Assembly (NCBI RefSeq): GCF_012027495.1
Contig: NZ_SNUK01000004.1
Coordinates: forward strand, 124,001 to 188,000
DNA length: 64,000 nucleotides
Reading direction: 5' to 3'
From: Thermococcus sp. JdF3
Lineage (GTDB): Archaea > Methanobacteriota_B > Thermococci > Thermococcales > Thermococcaceae
How positions within the stretch are numbered: the first letter of the stretch is position 1; every line of letters starts with the position of its first letter. The position numbers and the translations under genes were made by a program. Below the pieces are notes generated by a model. It did not search any database. It had not been told where the DNA came from and saw nothing but the letters and a program-made list of their open reading frames with translations. Of this stretch, positions 41,834 to 48,320 are shown in pieces.

Positions 41834-43054
41834 ATGATACTTCAGGTTGCCCTTGATCTAACTGACATTGAGCAGGCCATTTCTATCGCGGAGAAGGCCG
41901 CCCGCGGCGGTGCCCACTGGCTCGAGGTTGGAACCCCGCTCATCAAGAAGGAAGGCATGCGCGCGGTTGAGCTTCTCAAGAGGCGCTTCCCGGACAGGAA
42001 GATCGTCGCCGACCTCAAGACCATGGACACCGGCGCCCTTGAGGTCGAGATGGCCGCGCGCCACGGTGCCGATGTCGTTTCTATTCTCGGTGTCACCGAT
42101 GACAAGACGATAAAGGACGCGGTTGATGTCGCAAGGCGCTATGGAATCCGGGTCATGGTTGACCTCATAGGCGTCAAGGACAAGGTCAAGCGCGCCAAGG
42201 AGCTCGAAAAGATGGGCGTTCACTACATCCTCGTTCATACTGGCATAGACGAGCAGGTTCAGGGCAAGAGCCCGCTGGAGGACCTGGAGAAGGTTGTTAA
42301 AGCCGTCAGCGTCCCCGTTGCCGTCGCCGGCGGGCTGAACCTCCAGACCATACCGAAGGTCATTGAGCTGGGCGCCACGATAATAATCGTCGGAGGCGCG
42401 ATAACCAAGGCTGAGAAACCTGAGGAAGTCACCAGAAAGATAATCGACCTCTTCTGGGGAGAGTACATGATGACGATAAGGAAGGCCATGACCGACATAA
42501 TCGATCACATAGGCAACGTCGCTGAGAAGCTCAAGATAGAGCAGGTTCGCGGCTTCGTTGATGCCATGATTGGAGCGAACAAGATATTCATCTACGGCGC
42601 AGGAAGGAGCGGCCTCGTCGGTAAGGCCTTCGCGATGAGGCTCATGCACCTCGACTTCAACGTTTACGTCGTCGGCGAAACGATAACCCCCGCCTTCGAG
42701 CCAGGAGACCTGCTCATAGCCATCAGCGGTTCCGGTGAGACCAAGAGCATAGTTGACGCCGCCCAGATAGCCAGGGCCCAGGGTGGAAAGGTCGTTGCAA
42801 TAACATCCTATGCGAACTCGACCCTTGGAAAGCTCGCGGATGTGGTCGTTGAGGTGCCAGGCAGAACGAAGAGTGACGTTCCGACCGACTACATCGCCCG
42901 CCAGATGCTCACCAAGTACAAGTGGATAGCCCCGATGGGAACCCTCTTCGAGGACTCGACCATGATATTCCTCGACGGAGTCATAGCACTCCTCATGGCC
43001 ACCTTCCAGAAGACGGAGAAGGACATGAAGAAGAAGCACGCAACCCTTGAGTGA
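41834..43054 (+). CDS. hps-phi: Fused 3-hexulose-6-phosphate synthase / 6-phospho-3-hexuloisomerase
   Basis: This 406-residue protein has an N-terminal Hps domain (to about residue 210; MILQVALDLTDIEQA, the catalytic Asp-Lys block ADLKTMDTGALEVEMAARHG, and AVAGGLNLQTIPK) and a C-terminal SIS domain (IYGAGRSGLVGKAFAMRL, ISGSGETKSIV). In Pyrococcus the fused enzyme runs in reverse, making ribulose 5-phosphate and formaldehyde from fructose 6-phosphate, replacing the oxidative pentose pathway. ATG 41834 follows GGAGGCGAGGAG. Confidence 0.97.
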   Translation: MILQVALDLTDIEQAISIAEKAARGGAHWLEVGTPLIKKEGMRAVELLKRRFPDRKIVADLKTMDTGALEVEMAARHGADVVSILGVTDDKTIKDAVDVARRYGIRVMVDLIGVKDKVKRAKELEKMGVHYILVHTGIDEQVQGKSPLEDLEKVVKAVSVPVAVAGGLNLQTIPKVIELGATIIIVGGAITKAEKPEEVTRKIIDLFWGEYMMTIRKAMTDIIDHIGNVAEKLKIEQVRGFVDAMIGANKIFIYGAGRSGLVGKAFAMRLMHLDFNVYVVGETITPAFEPGDLLIAISGSGETKSIVDAAQIARAQGGKVVAITSYANSTLGKLADVVVEVPGRTKSDVPTDYIARQMLTKYKWIAPMGTLFEDSTMIFLDGVIALLMATFQKTEKDMKKKHATLE

Positions 43055-43109: not shown

Positions 43110-43865
43110 ATGCAGTCCTTTACCCATCTTTTCGTTGGAATAGGCGGCACGGGCGCGCGGATAGTCAACAGCATAACCGCTGATGGGATAGTCAAGGTGA
43201 CCGTTAACCCCGCCTACTATCTCCTCTCGAACTCCGGGAGGTACGAGGAGCGGCTCCGGAACTTCTTTTCCCGGCTTCCTAAGGATACTTTCCTCTGGCT
43301 CGTGTTTGAGGATAAGGACGTGAATCACGAACTGGGGGAGATTATAATAGAGAGCGCACCCCGGGACACGATAAGGCTCGCCTACGTTCTCACCCCCAGA
43401 AAAGAGCTTGTAGATGAGAAAAAACCCTCATGGGCACGCGATTTTGAGACCGTTTTTTACGATTCCCTCTGGGACTTCTTCACCGACGAGAGCGTCTCCC
43501 TCCAGGATGCGTTCCAGGGGGCCTCCGCCGGCATAGCGGAGATGTTCTCGCGGCTCTATTACTATCTGGAGAGCCAGATGCTGGTGAACATCGACTACGC
43601 CGACCTGTTCAACATGATCCGCGGCGGCAACGTCGGAATCCTGCGTCTCCTCCGGGAGGTTGACTTTACCTGGCACTGGGGCATCTGGGAGCGCGGACTG
43701 ATAGGCATCCTCGTGGGGAACGACTTCCCCCTCCGGGGCGCCCACAGTATACTTCACAGCTTCCAGGAGATACTCTCCGAGAAGGATGTGATCTGGGGGA
43801 TTATAACCGATGAGAACCTCGACGGCAGGGTTGAGATACTCTCCCTGCTCGTCAAGAAGTGGTAG
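43110..43865 (+). CDS. Divergent FtsZ/tubulin-superfamily-like protein
   Basis: This 251-residue protein shows a series of blocks in FtsZ order: LFVGIGGTGARIVNSI (like the FtsZ T1 loop), QDAFQGASAGIAEM, NIDYADLFNMIRGGNVGIL (like NxDFADV in FtsZ), and SEKDVIWGIITDENLDG (like the FtsZ C-terminal domain IIWG...). The tubulin signature GGGTGTG of the T4 loop is missing; that region reads FLWLVFEDKDVNHELGEI. It may therefore bind GTP weakly or not at all. The protein is also shorter than FtsZ. It begins a compact operon with a HAD phosphatase. The assignment is by pattern only. Confidence 0.55.
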   Translation: MQSFTHLFVGIGGTGARIVNSITADGIVKVTVNPAYYLLSNSGRYEERLRNFFSRLPKDTFLWLVFEDKDVNHELGEIIIESAPRDTIRLAYVLTPRKELVDEKKPSWARDFETVFYDSLWDFFTDESVSLQDAFQGASAGIAEMFSRLYYYLESQMLVNIDYADLFNMIRGGNVGILRLLREVDFTWHWGIWERGLIGILVGNDFPLRGAHSILHSFQEILSEKDVIWGIITDENLDGRVEILSLLVKKW

Positions 43866-43873
43866 GTGGTAAA

Positions 43874-44518
43874 ATGAGGGCGGTTCTTTTCGACATCGAC
43901 GGGACTCTGCTGACCGAGATGCCGCTGATTCAGCTGTTCCTCCCGCAGGTTTATGACAGACTCTCGAGGCGGTTTGGAATCAGCAAGGACGAAGCCAGAG
44001 AGCGGTTCCTGGGCGAGATATTCGGGAGGAGGGACACCTACGACTGGCACGACTGGAACTTCTTCTTCAGGCTCTTTGACCTCGACCTCCAATACGAAGA
44101 GCTCCTGGAGAGATACCCTCACAAGCTCCACGTCTATCCGGATACGATCCCCGTGCTTGAGTGGCTGCGGGAGAGCGGTTATAAGCTTGGGGCCGTTACC
44201 AGCGGGCCCGAGTACCAGCGGCTCAAGCTGAGGCTCACCGGTCTGCTGGACTACTTCGACGCTGTCGTTACCCGGGAGGATGTCAGGGCAATAAAACCCG
44301 AGCCCAAAATATTCCTCTACGCCCTGGAGAAGCTGGGCGTCGAGCCCGGGGAGGCGGTCATGGTGGGTGATTCCCTGAGCCAGGACGTTTACGGGGCCAA
44401 GAACGTGGGTATGGTGGCGGTCTGGATAAACCGGGATGGCGACGAGGATTACAACATGGCGGACTACGAGATTAGAACGCTTCACGAGCTGAGAAAAGTG
44501 CTGGGGGGATTGGAATGA
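43874..44518 (+). CDS. HAD-superfamily phosphatase
   Basis: This 214-residue protein has all HAD motifs: FDIDGTLL at the start, VTSG near residue 110, Lys in IKPEPKIF near 140, and VMVGDSLSQDVYGAK near 163. A helical cap lies between motifs I and II, as in phosphoglycolate-phosphatase-like and haloacid-dehalogenase-like members. The substrate is unknown. ATG 43874 follows GGTGGTAAA, and its stop overlaps the next small gene (ATGA). Confidence 0.9.
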   Translation: MRAVLFDIDGTLLTEMPLIQLFLPQVYDRLSRRFGISKDEARERFLGEIFGRRDTYDWHDWNFFFRLFDLDLQYEELLERYPHKLHVYPDTIPVLEWLRESGYKLGAVTSGPEYQRLKLRLTGLLDYFDAVVTREDVRAIKPEPKIFLYALEKLGVEPGEAVMVGDSLSQDVYGAKNVGMVAVWINRDGDEDYNMADYEIRTLHELRKVLGGLE

Positions 44519-44697: not shown

Positions 44698-45507
44698 ATG
44701 ATAGCACATCTGATAAACACTGACGTTGGGAACAGGGGGGTTCTGAGGGTATACCTCGACTACCGCCGGGAGAACCCCAATTTTTTACATAATTCTGCAA
44801 AACTGTTTTTGGATAATTATGAACGCGTTCTCATCGTCACGGGCTTTCCCATACCGCCGGAGATGCGGGCAGAAACCGACGGCCCGCCGGGAACACTGGC
44901 CCTGACGAAGGCAGTTGAGACCCTGGGAGGCACTGCAGAGGTGCTTACTTATCCGGAGGTAAAGACTGCCCTGGAACCCTTCGGCATCAGGTTCACAGAC
45001 GAACCGGAGATAGGGGACTACTCCCTCGTGATAGCGGTTGAGACCCCAGGCAGGGCCGCAGATGGGAGGTACTACTCAATGAGCGCCATGGAGATCACGA
45101 GAGAAGCCTTTGATTGGGCGGTTCTTAGGGCGAAGGACATTGGAGTTCCGACGATTGGGATAGGCGACGGGGGCAACGAGGCGGGCATGGGGAACATACG
45201 GGACCTCGTCGTCCGATACGTGCCCCACGGGGAGAGGATAGCGAGCACCGTTGAGACCGATGAGCTGATACTCTCCGCCGTCTCAAACTGGGGGGCCTAC
45301 GGGCTCGTGGCTCAGGCGTCAATAGAGTTCGGACGGGAGCTCCTCCCCGGATGGGATGAGAAGACGATAGTTAGAATAATCTCAAAGCTCGGCCTTATAG
45401 ACGGGGTCTCCAAAACCCAGACACCGACGGTTGATGGGATAAGCCTCGACATCCACGATAGAATCGTTGAGCTTTTAAACGCCGTTGTAAACGAGGCCCT
45501 AAGGTGA
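44698..45507 (+). CDS. DUF4392 / D-glutamate-cyclase-like protein
   Basis: This 269-residue protein contains IGIGDGGNEAGMGNI near residue 155, the signature of DUF4392 proteins and of the catalytic domain of mitochondrial D-glutamate cyclase. It also has LIVTGFPIPPEMRAETDGPPG near residue 48. The family is thought to act on D-glutamate or related substrates. The role in this archaeon is unknown. It is part of the operon from 43110 to 46132. Confidence 0.85.
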   Translation: MIAHLINTDVGNRGVLRVYLDYRRENPNFLHNSAKLFLDNYERVLIVTGFPIPPEMRAETDGPPGTLALTKAVETLGGTAEVLTYPEVKTALEPFGIRFTDEPEIGDYSLVIAVETPGRAADGRYYSMSAMEITREAFDWAVLRAKDIGVPTIGIGDGGNEAGMGNIRDLVVRYVPHGERIASTVETDELILSAVSNWGAYGLVAQASIEFGRELLPGWDEKTIVRIISKLGLIDGVSKTQTPTVDGISLDIHDRIVELLNAVVNEALR

Positions 45508-45511
45508 TGGG

Positions 45512-46132
45512 ATGAGGCTCGAGGAGTTCATCGGTGATGGAAATTCAATCAGACTCATAGAACGGACCCGCGATTATGCCAGGCACTTCTTTGAACGGGA
45601 GGGAACCCACGGCTTCAGCCACGTGGAGCGGGTGCTCAATCTGTGCCTCCACATCGGGAGGGAGGAGGGGGCGGACCTGGAGACCCTGGCCCTCGCGGCC
45701 CTCCTCCACGACGTGGCAAGGCCACTTGAGAGCGCTGGAAGGGTTGAAGACCACGCCGCTGAAGGGGCCAGGATAGCGATGCACTACCTCAGAAGCCTCG
45801 GGTACCCCGAGGAGAAGGTTGAGGCGGTTGCCCACGCCATAGAGGCCCACCGCTTCTCCAGCGGCCCGGAGCCAAGAACCCTCGAGGCAAAGATACTCAG
45901 CGACGCCGACAAGCTCGATGCGATCGGTGCGATAGGGATAGCGAGGGTCTTCATGTACTCCGGCGAGCACGGAAGGAGCATCGAGGATTCCCTGGAGCAC
46001 TTCGAGGAAAAGATACTGAAGCTGAAGGATTTGATGTACACCGAAACCGCGAGGAGGATGGCCGAGGAGAGGCATCGCTTCACCGAGGAATTCATCGAGC
46101 GCATAAGGCGCGAGATAGAGGGCGAAATCTGA
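45512..46132 (+). CDS. HD-domain metal-dependent phosphohydrolase
   Basis: This 206-residue protein has the HD set: His in GFSHVERVLNLC near residue 34, HD in LAALLHDVARP near 66, His residues at VAHAIEAHRF near 110, and Asp in LSDADKLDAIGAIG near 130. Members hydrolyse nucleotide or other phosphoesters. It is the last gene of the operon, starting four bases after the upstream stop. Confidence 0.9.
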   Translation: MRLEEFIGDGNSIRLIERTRDYARHFFEREGTHGFSHVERVLNLCLHIGREEGADLETLALAALLHDVARPLESAGRVEDHAAEGARIAMHYLRSLGYPEEKVEAVAHAIEAHRFSSGPEPRTLEAKILSDADKLDAIGAIGIARVFMYSGEHGRSIEDSLEHFEEKILKLKDLMYTETARRMAEERHRFTEEFIERIRREIEGEI

Positions 46133-46232
46133 ACCTCCTTTCGGCTTTTTCTTCCATAATAAGGTTTTTAAAGGACTTCCAGAATTAAGGGTTAGCCCGT
46201 TTAAGGTCATTCTTAGGTGAGGAGGTGAGGAT

Positions 46233-46745
46233 ATGAAGGCGCCGATCTGTGAGGTGTGTTTGAAGACCGACGACATTCTGTGCCCGGCTGACGAGAAAAA
46301 GCTCCAGGACGGGGTTATTTCCGAGCTGGATGTTAAAGTTGCGAGACTCCTTTACAGGCTCATCGGAGACGCTGACATGGAGTTTAAGAAGGCCGTTGAA
46401 GCCGGTGACCTCATAGTCATCGTGGTTGGCGAGGGAGACGTCCCGATAACCATCGGCAAGGGCGGCAAGAACATCAAGGCCCTCATGAGGGAGCTTGGAA
46501 AGAGGATACGCGTCATTGAAGCCGTGGAGGTCACGGGGACCGACGATGTCAAGAAGCTTGCCACCGACCTCCTCTACCCTGCGGGCGTCTTCGGGGTCAA
46601 CATCGTTTACAAGCCAGGAGGGGGAACCTACTACAAGGTCCTCGTCATGGGAAGGGACAGGAAGAAGCTCCCCGAAAAGGCCGACGTCCTGGAGAGCATA
46701 CTCTCCCAGATAACCGGGGCCGAGGTAAAGATAAACTTTATTTGA
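46233..46745 (+). CDS. KH-domain NusA-like RNA-binding protein
   Basis: This 170-residue protein has an N-terminal Cys cluster (CEVCLKTDDILC) that may bind zinc, then a KH-type segment with GKGGKNIKALMRELGKRIRV near residue 75 (GxxG loop) and a second KH-like half. It resembles the archaeal NusA-like family that binds RNA. ATG 46233 follows GAGGTGAGGAT. TTTTTAAAGG at about 46165 is the probable TATA box. Confidence 0.85.
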   Translation: MKAPICEVCLKTDDILCPADEKKLQDGVISELDVKVARLLYRLIGDADMEFKKAVEAGDLIVIVVGEGDVPITIGKGGKNIKALMRELGKRIRVIEAVEVTGTDDVKKLATDLLYPAGVFGVNIVYKPGGGTYYKVLVMGRDRKKLPEKADVLESILSQITGAEVKINFI

Positions 46746-46907
46746 TGTTCTTTTCTGTTCCTCCGTTTGTTTCTCCTGGTATGTAGGGATTAGTGTGAAT
46801 ATTATACTTCCTATAATTTTCTACTTTTGTTTTCAACTTTGAGTTTACGAAATTCTTTTAAGTCTGGATTATTTGTCCATGATTGAAACCTTCCGGAGGT
46901 GGTAAGA

Positions 46908-48320
46908 TTGAACCGCCGGATGGTTGGAGCTTTAATTCTCCTGCTCGTGTTGACACTGCCCGGAGCCGCGGCTCTCTCCCTGCCGTGGTCCGGGCTTCCT
47001 GTCTTTGGGACAAGTTCGGGAGCGTATCCAATCCACCTCAACGGCGTTGAGCAGAGCGGGAACATTGCGGTCGTTACCTGGAATGTTCCACCGAACTGTT
47101 TGACTGGCTACGGAACGGTCCTCATCAGCAAGGATGGGGAGAGAATCACCGAGCGTGTCAGCCTTGGCCGGCTGAAGCCCTGGGGCAAGAAGGTGGCGGT
47201 CTTCCTCAACGTCAGGGAGCCGGTTTACGTTAAACTGCGTATTTCCTCTGGAAACGGCATCTTCATGAGTTCATGGGTAAGGCTAACACCGGAATCCACG
47301 CCGAGATTCTTCCCAACCGGCTACACGGTAACCTATCCTGCGCAGAAAGGAGAGATAAGGCCTCAATTCTTTCAGGCTATAGGTGCGTTAATAGTCATCG
47401 GGCTAACGGTGTGGGATGCTTATGATACTTACAAGACGTGCAGGGATTACGGCACGGATTCAATGGAGTGTAAGGTTCAGGGAACACTCTTCATCGTTGG
47501 CGTTGCAGTCCCGGGTGATGAGGAATTAAAACTCGTCTCAAAGCTCGGCAAGAAGTTCGGAGTGACGGATGACATTTACAGGATTCTCAGGAAGGCCAAA
47601 ATAATAAACCATGCCGACGAAGTGGTTGAAAGGTTCACCCACATCTTCGATGACATCGTCAAGCACGGCGATGATGCCGCGAAGGCCCTCGACGACCTCA
47701 CCAGGGCTGGAGTTTCAACGGAGGCGGTTGAAGAGGCCGTTAAGCGCGGGGCAACGATAAAAGGAGTGAAGGAAGGAATTGAGAGGTTTGCAGAGAAGTC
47801 TTCATCCTTCATAGTCAAGAACAGCGGAAAGGAGTATACAGTCGTCCTTGAGAAGGGAACTGAACCCGAGAGAAGCGGACTGCTTCACGCCTTCCTGAGG
47901 CACGTGTGGGGATATGAGATGGACATAATTAAGAGCCGTGCAAAAACCAAGATTACAACCTTCTGGCCGTTGGGCCAGAAAATCGTTGATCCCAAAACTG
48001 GAAGGGTTGTCCAGCTTCCAAAAGTCTTCAGGGACGAGGAAGGGCTCAGAGAGTTCCTTGATGAAGTACTGGAGAGGGCACTCCAGAAGGAAGAGTACTA
48101 CACAGAATTTAGGGGACAGAGCTTTGTGAAGCTAAGGGTTAACCTGAATGAACTCGGCATGCACATAGACGGAATAGATGTGGTAGAGTTCCAGTTCTCA
48201 TACAACCAAGCTAAGGGTGCCTATCAACTTATTACAGCATATCCCTCAAAAGGCAAGAAGGTTTTAGGGTACGTGTGGGACAGAGAAAAACAATCTGGTA
48301 GATGGATACGCATGGGGTGA
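46908..48320 (+). CDS. Probable secreted polymorphic toxin with BECR-RNase-like C-terminus
   Basis: This 470-residue protein starts with TTG at 46908, spaced from GGAGGTGG (ATG 46920 is the alternative). A signal peptide (MVGALILLLVLTLPGAAAL) is followed by a beta-rich region to about residue 150. A hydrophobic segment (IGALIVIGLTVWDAYDTYK, then CRDYGTDSMECKVQG and a further hydrophobic VGVAVPGD) looks like the pre-toxin modules of bacterial polymorphic toxins. Then come helices and a C-terminal domain (about 300-470) with GLLHAFLRHVWG, KTKITTFWPLG, LREFLDEVLERAL and YQLITAYPSKGKK. The His-x3-Arg-His, helix and TAYP order resembles BECR-fold RNase toxins. A small gene follows six bases later. 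Toxin function is inference. Confidence 0.6.
   Translation: MNRRMVGALILLLVLTLPGAAALSLPWSGLPVFGTSSGAYPIHLNGVEQSGNIAVVTWNVPPNCLTGYGTVLISKDGERITERVSLGRLKPWGKKVAVFLNVREPVYVKLRISSGNGIFMSSWVRLTPESTPRFFPTGYTVTYPAQKGEIRPQFFQAIGALIVIGLTVWDAYDTYKTCRDYGTDSMECKVQGTLFIVGVAVPGDEELKLVSKLGKKFGVTDDIYRILRKAKIINHADEVVERFTHIFDDIVKHGDDAAKALDDLTRAGVSTEAVEEAVKRGATIKGVKEGIERFAEKSSSFIVKNSGKEYTVVLEKGTEPERSGLLHAFLRHVWGYEMDIIKSRAKTKITTFWPLGQKIVDPKTGRVVQLPKVFRDEEGLREFLDEVLERALQKEEYYTEFRGQSFVKLRVNLNELGMHIDGIDVVEFQFSYNQAKGAYQLITAYPSKGKKVLGYVWDREKQSGRWIRMG
47955..48086 (+). repeat. Direct repeat, copy 1 (toxin tip)
   Basis: These 132 bases of the toxin gene recur at 48938-49069 in the same orientation with high identity. 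A block of 36 bases (48003-48038 versus 48986-49021) is identical. Such a repeat could allow recombination that swaps toxin tips. Confidence 0.85.

Follow-up and report, generated by a model that had tools for sequence, protein, structure and literature searches.

What is a protein that carries the sequence blocks of FtsZ in FtsZ order and lacks the tubulin GTPase signature, and what could such a protein do from within a sugar-phosphate operon? We addressed this question for a gene of Thermococcus sp. JdF3, located in a 64,000-nucleotide stretch of contig NZ_SNUK01000004.1 (positions 124,001 to 188,000, forward strand) that was analysed as a whole and is called the window here, and for its relatives, which we refer to as the pseudo-FtsZ family. 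Among the functions that an earlier, sequence-only reading of this DNA had offered, a regulator of division is the one that we favour as plausible. The features on which the argument draws are collected in Table 1.

Table 1. Positions in the window of the pseudo-FtsZ gene, its sequence blocks and its two neighbours.
Feature	Position	Strand	Basis or remark
FtsZ-derived protein without tubulin signature, 251 aa	43110..43865	+	ORF, ATG start; family profile; NCBIfam TIGR00065
T1-like loop FVGIGGTGARI, residues 8-18	43131..43163	+	G10, G12, G15 invariant 27/27
FEDKDVNHE, residues 66-74, occupying the T4 GGGTGTG region	43305..43331	+	GGGTGTG in 0/27 members
S6/T6 equivalent FETVFYDS, residues 112-119	43443..43466	+	7/8 residues invariant; Asn absent 112-121
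T7 loop NIDYAD, residues 160-165	43587..43604	+	N160, D162, A164, D165 invariant 27/27
WHWGIWERG, family-specific, residues 188-196	43671..43697	+	W188, W190, G191, W193, R195, G196 invariant; at the place of the FtsZ S7-H9-S8 region
S9 block KDVIWG, residues 225-230	43782..43799	+	K, D, I, W, G invariant
HAD hydrolase, TIGR02253 (CTE7) subfamily	43859..44518	+	directly downstream; overlaps if GTG start used
Hexulose-6-phosphate synthase / 6-phospho-3-hexuloisomerase fusion (HPS-PHI)	41834..43054	+	upstream; OMPdecase/HUMPS and SIS domains

The sequence-only reading had named three FtsZ-like blocks, and all of them are present in the order claimed: GIGGTGARI (residues 10-18), NIDYADLF (160-167) and VIWGIITDENLDG (227-239) align with T1, T7 and the C-terminal S9 region of the FtsZ1 and FtsZ2 proteins of the same genome. 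Against NCBIfam, the window protein matched the ftsZ model TIGR00065 over residues 197-244 (E=3.7e-5), scoring 23.2 bits where the cut-off of the model is 295.2; against Pfam, it gave a sub-threshold FtsZ_C match (E 0.23) and no match to PF00091 at E<=1. When 27 family members were scanned singly, TIGR00065 matched 16 (best 2.8e-8), FtsZ_C matched 14 (best 4.5e-4) and PF00091 matched one, at E 0.053.

The relation to FtsZ became clear at the level of profiles. In an hmmsearch of the 27-member profile against the PDB, three M. jannaschii FtsZ sequences ranked at the top (1.5e-7 to 2.4e-6); FtsZ also made up the majority of the 46 matches listed up to E 10. Comparison of the family profile with single sequences by hhalign gave probabilities of 96.0 for FtsZ2, 95.3 for FtsZ1 and 1.4 for CetZ; a ParA/MinD-like protein gave 1.0 and the HAD neighbour 0.1. 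Against profiles of 11 sequences, FtsZ2 reached an E-value of 1.2e-11 and FtsZ1 one of 2.5e-8; a 16-sequence profile that combined the two gave 2.3e-12. Since these values lie far below those of the control profiles, five column-shuffled and one reversed (hhalign E 0.31 to 0.89), the likeness of the blocks to FtsZ exceeds chance. The significant similarity spans residues 108-244. Residues 1-100 alone aligned with FtsZ in a T1-to-T1 register at a non-significant E=0.13 in hhalign; we therefore make no claim of homology for this part from its sequence, and its assignment to FtsZ rests on the predicted fold.

In a tree of the C-terminal part, the family formed one clade (100/100), set apart by a branch 9.3 changes per column in length, and the CetZ branch measured 8.8; because both branches are so long, the tree does not separate FtsZ1 from FtsZ2 as the parent. 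By profile scores only, pseudo-FtsZ appears nearest to FtsZ2. The JdF3 genome also holds three bona fide tubulin-family genes, which we take, from similarity, to be FtsZ1-like, FtsZ2-like and CetZ-like, and pseudo-FtsZ is the fourth member of the family in this genome, invisible to PF00091. Two other Thermococcaceae genomes (G064 and G078) have four PF00091 matches instead of the usual three. On another contig of the JdF3 genome (C6), a ParA/MinD-like ATPase gene (L032, 2682-3452), a possible division partner, begins 35 nt past the FtsZ2 stop codon.

To obtain predicted structures, AlphaFold2 was run twice on six sequences, once with the window protein and once with the protein of a second species as query. 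The two models had low mean pLDDT values (59.2 and 59.9) and pTM values of 0.62 and 0.60. The N domain was modelled confidently, with block means mostly of 75-91 to about residue 90, and showed FtsZ-like topology. The C-terminal part was poorly determined in both models, the greater share of it falling below a pLDDT of 50; after H8, the second model displays at low confidence a strand-helix-strand-strand succession, which is the FtsZ C-terminal order. In Foldseek, FtsZ accounted for every row at E<=0.001, 15 of 15 for the first model and 41 of 41 for the second. The best VIA-align match of either model was P. aeruginosa FtsZ (Z 14.0 over 203 residues at rmsd 4.0 for the first; Z 13.3 over 155 residues at rmsd 3.3 for the second), and the 50 rows listed per model were all FtsZ or CetZ. 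Pseudo-FtsZ is predicted, from these models, to have the FtsZ/tubulin fold. The sequence-only reading had proposed a degenerate member of the tubulin superfamily, to be given up if the predicted fold were not tubulin-like; the profiles bear the proposal out, as do the predicted structures, which are tubulin-like with best matches that are all FtsZ. On the grounds of profile homology and predicted fold, pseudo-FtsZ almost certainly descends from FtsZ.

We assigned the loops by aligning the family with FtsZ1 and FtsZ2 of the JdF3 genome in three MAFFT modes, which agreed save for gap placement, chiefly around the T3 region. According to the available portion of a published account of FtsZ, T1 touches the phosphate and the base, T2/T3 the beta and gamma phosphates, the T4 signature the alpha and beta phosphates, and the T6 Asn and H7 the guanine, and T7 enters the GTP pocket of the neighbouring subunit, leading to hydrolysis (PMC8456036). 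In the family, a stretch of about 27 residues containing T3 is missing. The T4 region is shortened and mostly reads F-E-D/N-K-x-x-N, and the GGGTGTG loop, said earlier to be replaced by FEDKDVNHE, is indeed absent from all 27 members. The T6 Asn is gone, no Asn being found within residues 112-121 of the 27 members, and the column of the H7 Asp holds S in 17, A in 5, T in 3 and G in 2 of them; the T5 Pro is invariant. By this alignment, the family has lost the canonical GTP site and has kept T7 intact, along with much of the C-terminal subdomain.

The remainder of the chain is also distinctive. After H8, about 16 columns of the S7-H9 region are missing, and WxWGxWxRG then follows; this block and FxTVFYDS are invariant, specific to the family and absent from FtsZ1 and FtsZ2. 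In all 27 members the chain ends at an invariant W251 right behind the last core strand, and the C-terminal linker and tail peptide are absent; the tail of archaeal FtsZ binds SepF, as stated in the available portion of PMC8178401. For membrane remodelling, another of the functions suggested earlier, we found no evidence, the protein ending past its last core strand without the tether tail of FtsZ. Invariant columns, 52 in total among the 27 members, are unevenly distributed (8 of 89 in residues 7-95 against 44 of 156 in residues 96-251; Fisher p=3e-4; the first six positions were omitted, some starts having been extended by guess). The corresponding counts in 11 FtsZ2 sequences (88 of 161 before T7, 51 of 97 from T7 on) and 11 FtsZ1 sequences (113 of 154 and 78 of 97) showed no significant skew, and they omit about 40 columns before T7, which makes the comparison with the family a rough one.

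A search of 94 Thermococcaceae genomes yielded an orthologue in 89 of them, spread over six genera (E 1e-69 or better), a count that includes one partial gene at a contig end. The gene is present in 72 of the 74 near-complete genomes (completeness of 90% or more, contamination of 5% or less). The five genomes without it (G002, G088, G032, G077 and G015) all have true FtsZ genes; the two near-complete ones among them, G002 and G088, are also without the HPS-PHI gene, so that assembly gaps are the likely reason for the absence. With the 27-member profile, 21 other genomes of the class gave partial FtsZ-type matches or none and no full-length homologue, 100 genomes of a second archaeal phylum gave two weak partial FtsZ-like matches, and 23 genomes of a third gave zero matches of any kind, a weak null. 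A pattern-based scan of genome contigs returned five loci, in Thermococci only. Among the genomes searched (21 others of the class and 123 further archaea), pseudo-FtsZ is thus specific to Thermococcaceae.

The gene is under purifying selection. In six of seven nucleotide comparisons with relatives, dN/dS was 0.034-0.171, and in the seventh the synonymous sites were saturated; the low values show that the gene is real. Residues 1-95 and the rest of the protein showed no consistent difference in dN/dS, both halves being under similar purifying selection among close relatives. The N domain is therefore not simply a discarded part, and the possibility that it is merely relaxed is weakened. As separate observations, genome G095 carries, besides an intact copy on contig C3, an extra broken copy on contig C2 (360947-361698; two frames, one TGA) that is 92-96% identical to the window gene and adjoins an intact second HAD copy, and genome G093 has two complete sets of HPS-PHI, pseudo-FtsZ and HAD, located on two contigs, which may reflect a mixed assembly.

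The genomic context is equally constant. The gene order is HPS-PHI, pseudo-FtsZ, HAD, where HPS-PHI is the enzyme that we presume to be encoded by the upstream gene with OMPdecase/HUMPS and SIS domains. The adjacent HAD phosphatase already noted from the sequence proved to be conserved: a HAD gene adjoins pseudo-FtsZ in 90 of 90 copies from the 89 genomes, with a 10 nt overlap to a 17 nt gap. HPS-PHI lies at most 200 nt away in 86 of the 89 copies that have both genes on one contig, usually at 8-193 nt, and about 850 nt away in three genomes (G008, G029 and G094); one copy, in G025, is without HPS-PHI on its contig. In a second genus (L067), the gene order reaches as far as a D-glutamate-cyclase-like gene, identified by its likeness to the window gene. 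Past the HAD gene, the window holds D-glutamate-cyclase-like, HD-domain and NusA-like KH genes (44698-46745), followed by a 473-aa ORF with zero Pfam matches at 1e-5 (46899-48320, + strand); likenesses of the D-glutamate-cyclase-like and HD genes also lie near the HAD gene in L067, the HD gene on the opposite strand.

Because the T7 acids act in trans and the protein's own pocket is lost, pseudo-FtsZ would most simply act on another FtsZ; T7 kept with the GTP site lost is what one would expect if the target of a protein were FtsZ subunits other than itself. We tentatively propose, at somewhat less than even confidence, that this T7-only protein is a hydrolysis-promoting filament cap or a disassembly factor for FtsZ1 or FtsZ2. 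Its T7/C-terminal face would dock onto either FtsZ1 or FtsZ2 at the nucleotide face, a contact that we infer, and its T7 would complete the GTPase site of the partner and stimulate hydrolysis. The dead nucleotide face of pseudo-FtsZ could not take the next subunit, and the filaments would be capped or shortened as a result. Genes for the possible partners FtsZ1, FtsZ2 and CetZ are all in the same genome, and we count in favour of the mechanism that the invariant columns crowd into the T5-to-C-terminal part and not into the N part. Counted against it are the tie of the gene to a sugar-phosphate operon, and not to division genes, the similar purifying selection on the two halves of the protein, the low confidence of the C-terminal models, and the thought that the T7 acids could by now serve another purpose. 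WxWGxWxRG, the most striking block of the family, also speaks against it: being absent from FtsZ1 and FtsZ2, it points to an extra function of the protein.

Alternatively, the FtsZ fold may have been exapted in metabolism, and we consider such a role, with HAD as the partner, nearly as likely as the filament-regulator mechanism. Pseudo-FtsZ would then serve the HAD phosphatase, and perhaps HPS-PHI as well, as a regulatory or scaffold subunit, with retained loops and a W-rich block that bind a small phosphorylated ligand or the partner enzyme, and would have no role in filaments. The main argument for this explanation is the strict link to the sugar-phosphate operon, with HAD adjacent in every copy and HPS-PHI within 200 nt in nearly all; the invariant WxWGxWxRG and FxTVFYDS, which FtsZ1 and FtsZ2 do not have, agree with it. 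By itself, however, it leaves the invariance of the T7 residues N, D, A and D unexplained, and a shared operon need not imply physical partnership. The filament-regulator and metabolic readings can be combined in a metabolic brake, which we regard as unlikely: co-expressed with HAD and with HPS-PHI, for pentose-phosphate supply, pseudo-FtsZ would sense the supply of sugar phosphates or nucleotides and cap or dissolve FtsZ1/FtsZ2 filaments, acting as a division inhibitor made from FtsZ.

Rather improbable, in our estimation, is an unusual FtsZ that binds nucleotide by means other than the canonical loops and forms polymers or copolymers. The invariant T1 glycines and T5 Pro would suit such a protein, as would the N domain with its confidently modelled FtsZ-like topology, but the 27 aligned members lack T3, T4, the T6 Asn and the H7 Asp, and within the FtsZ core their S7-H9 region is shortened. 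The absence of all four also disfavours the new nucleotide-binding family that the sequence-only reading had considered. The notion of a functionless, decaying FtsZ relic could appeal to the additional broken copy in G095; we rejected it as extremely improbable on the basis of its distribution, in 89 of 94 genomes and six genera, and of purifying selection, with dN/dS of 0.034-0.171 and 52 invariant columns in 27 members.

If pseudo-FtsZ is a filament regulator, it would represent an archaeal division regulator derived from FtsZ and might connect division with central sugar metabolism; if it is not, the FtsZ fold would have been reused in metabolism. Thermococcus kodakarensis, a genetically tractable species, belongs to the family in which pseudo-FtsZ is near-universal.

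Among known systems, archaeal FtsZ2 and FtsZ1 share with pseudo-FtsZ the order of the T1, T7 and C-terminal blocks, profile homology and the predicted fold. They differ in having the T3/T4 GTP loops, the T6 Asn, the H7 Asp, a full S7-H9 region and a C-terminal tail, in their length (385-422 aa compared with 251 aa) and in the very long branch that separates them from the family. CetZ of Thermococcales belongs to the same superfamily, and CetZ structures are among the structural matches; however, the hhalign score with CetZ of the JdF3 genome is not significant, and a closer relation to CetZ than to FtsZ was dismissed (probability 1.4 against 95-96 for FtsZ1/FtsZ2, from single sequences). Our searches of open-licence papers brought up no published description of the family. 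A survey of CetZ proteins mentions, in its available portion, one further divergent protein of the superfamily, present in just two Thermococcus strains (PMC9856176), which ill fits a near-universal gene. FtsZl1 and FtsZl2, as defined in the available text of PMC2875224, are likewise divergent FtsZ relatives that emerged from a sensitive search, but they keep GGGTG(S/T)G and have extra coiled-coil or C-terminal regions; pseudo-FtsZ, without that loop, does not belong to them. MciZ, the filament-capping peptide of Bacillus, offers a functional analogy only: it blocks subunit contacts at the filament end but, as described in part of PMC8456036, is a 40-aa peptide without the FtsZ fold and binds the H10/S9 face of FtsZ. 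The degenerate thaumarchaeal FtsZ of Nitrosopumilus maritimus, according to the available part of PMC3684127, is without the conserved GTP-binding motif and does not polymerise, and it seems also to be without the T7 loop NVDFAD. The invariant T7 of pseudo-FtsZ excludes it from this type, in which both the GTP motif and T7 are lost, and as far as the accessible text of that report goes, the pseudo-FtsZ family presents the opposite pattern to the degenerate archaeal FtsZ of the literature.
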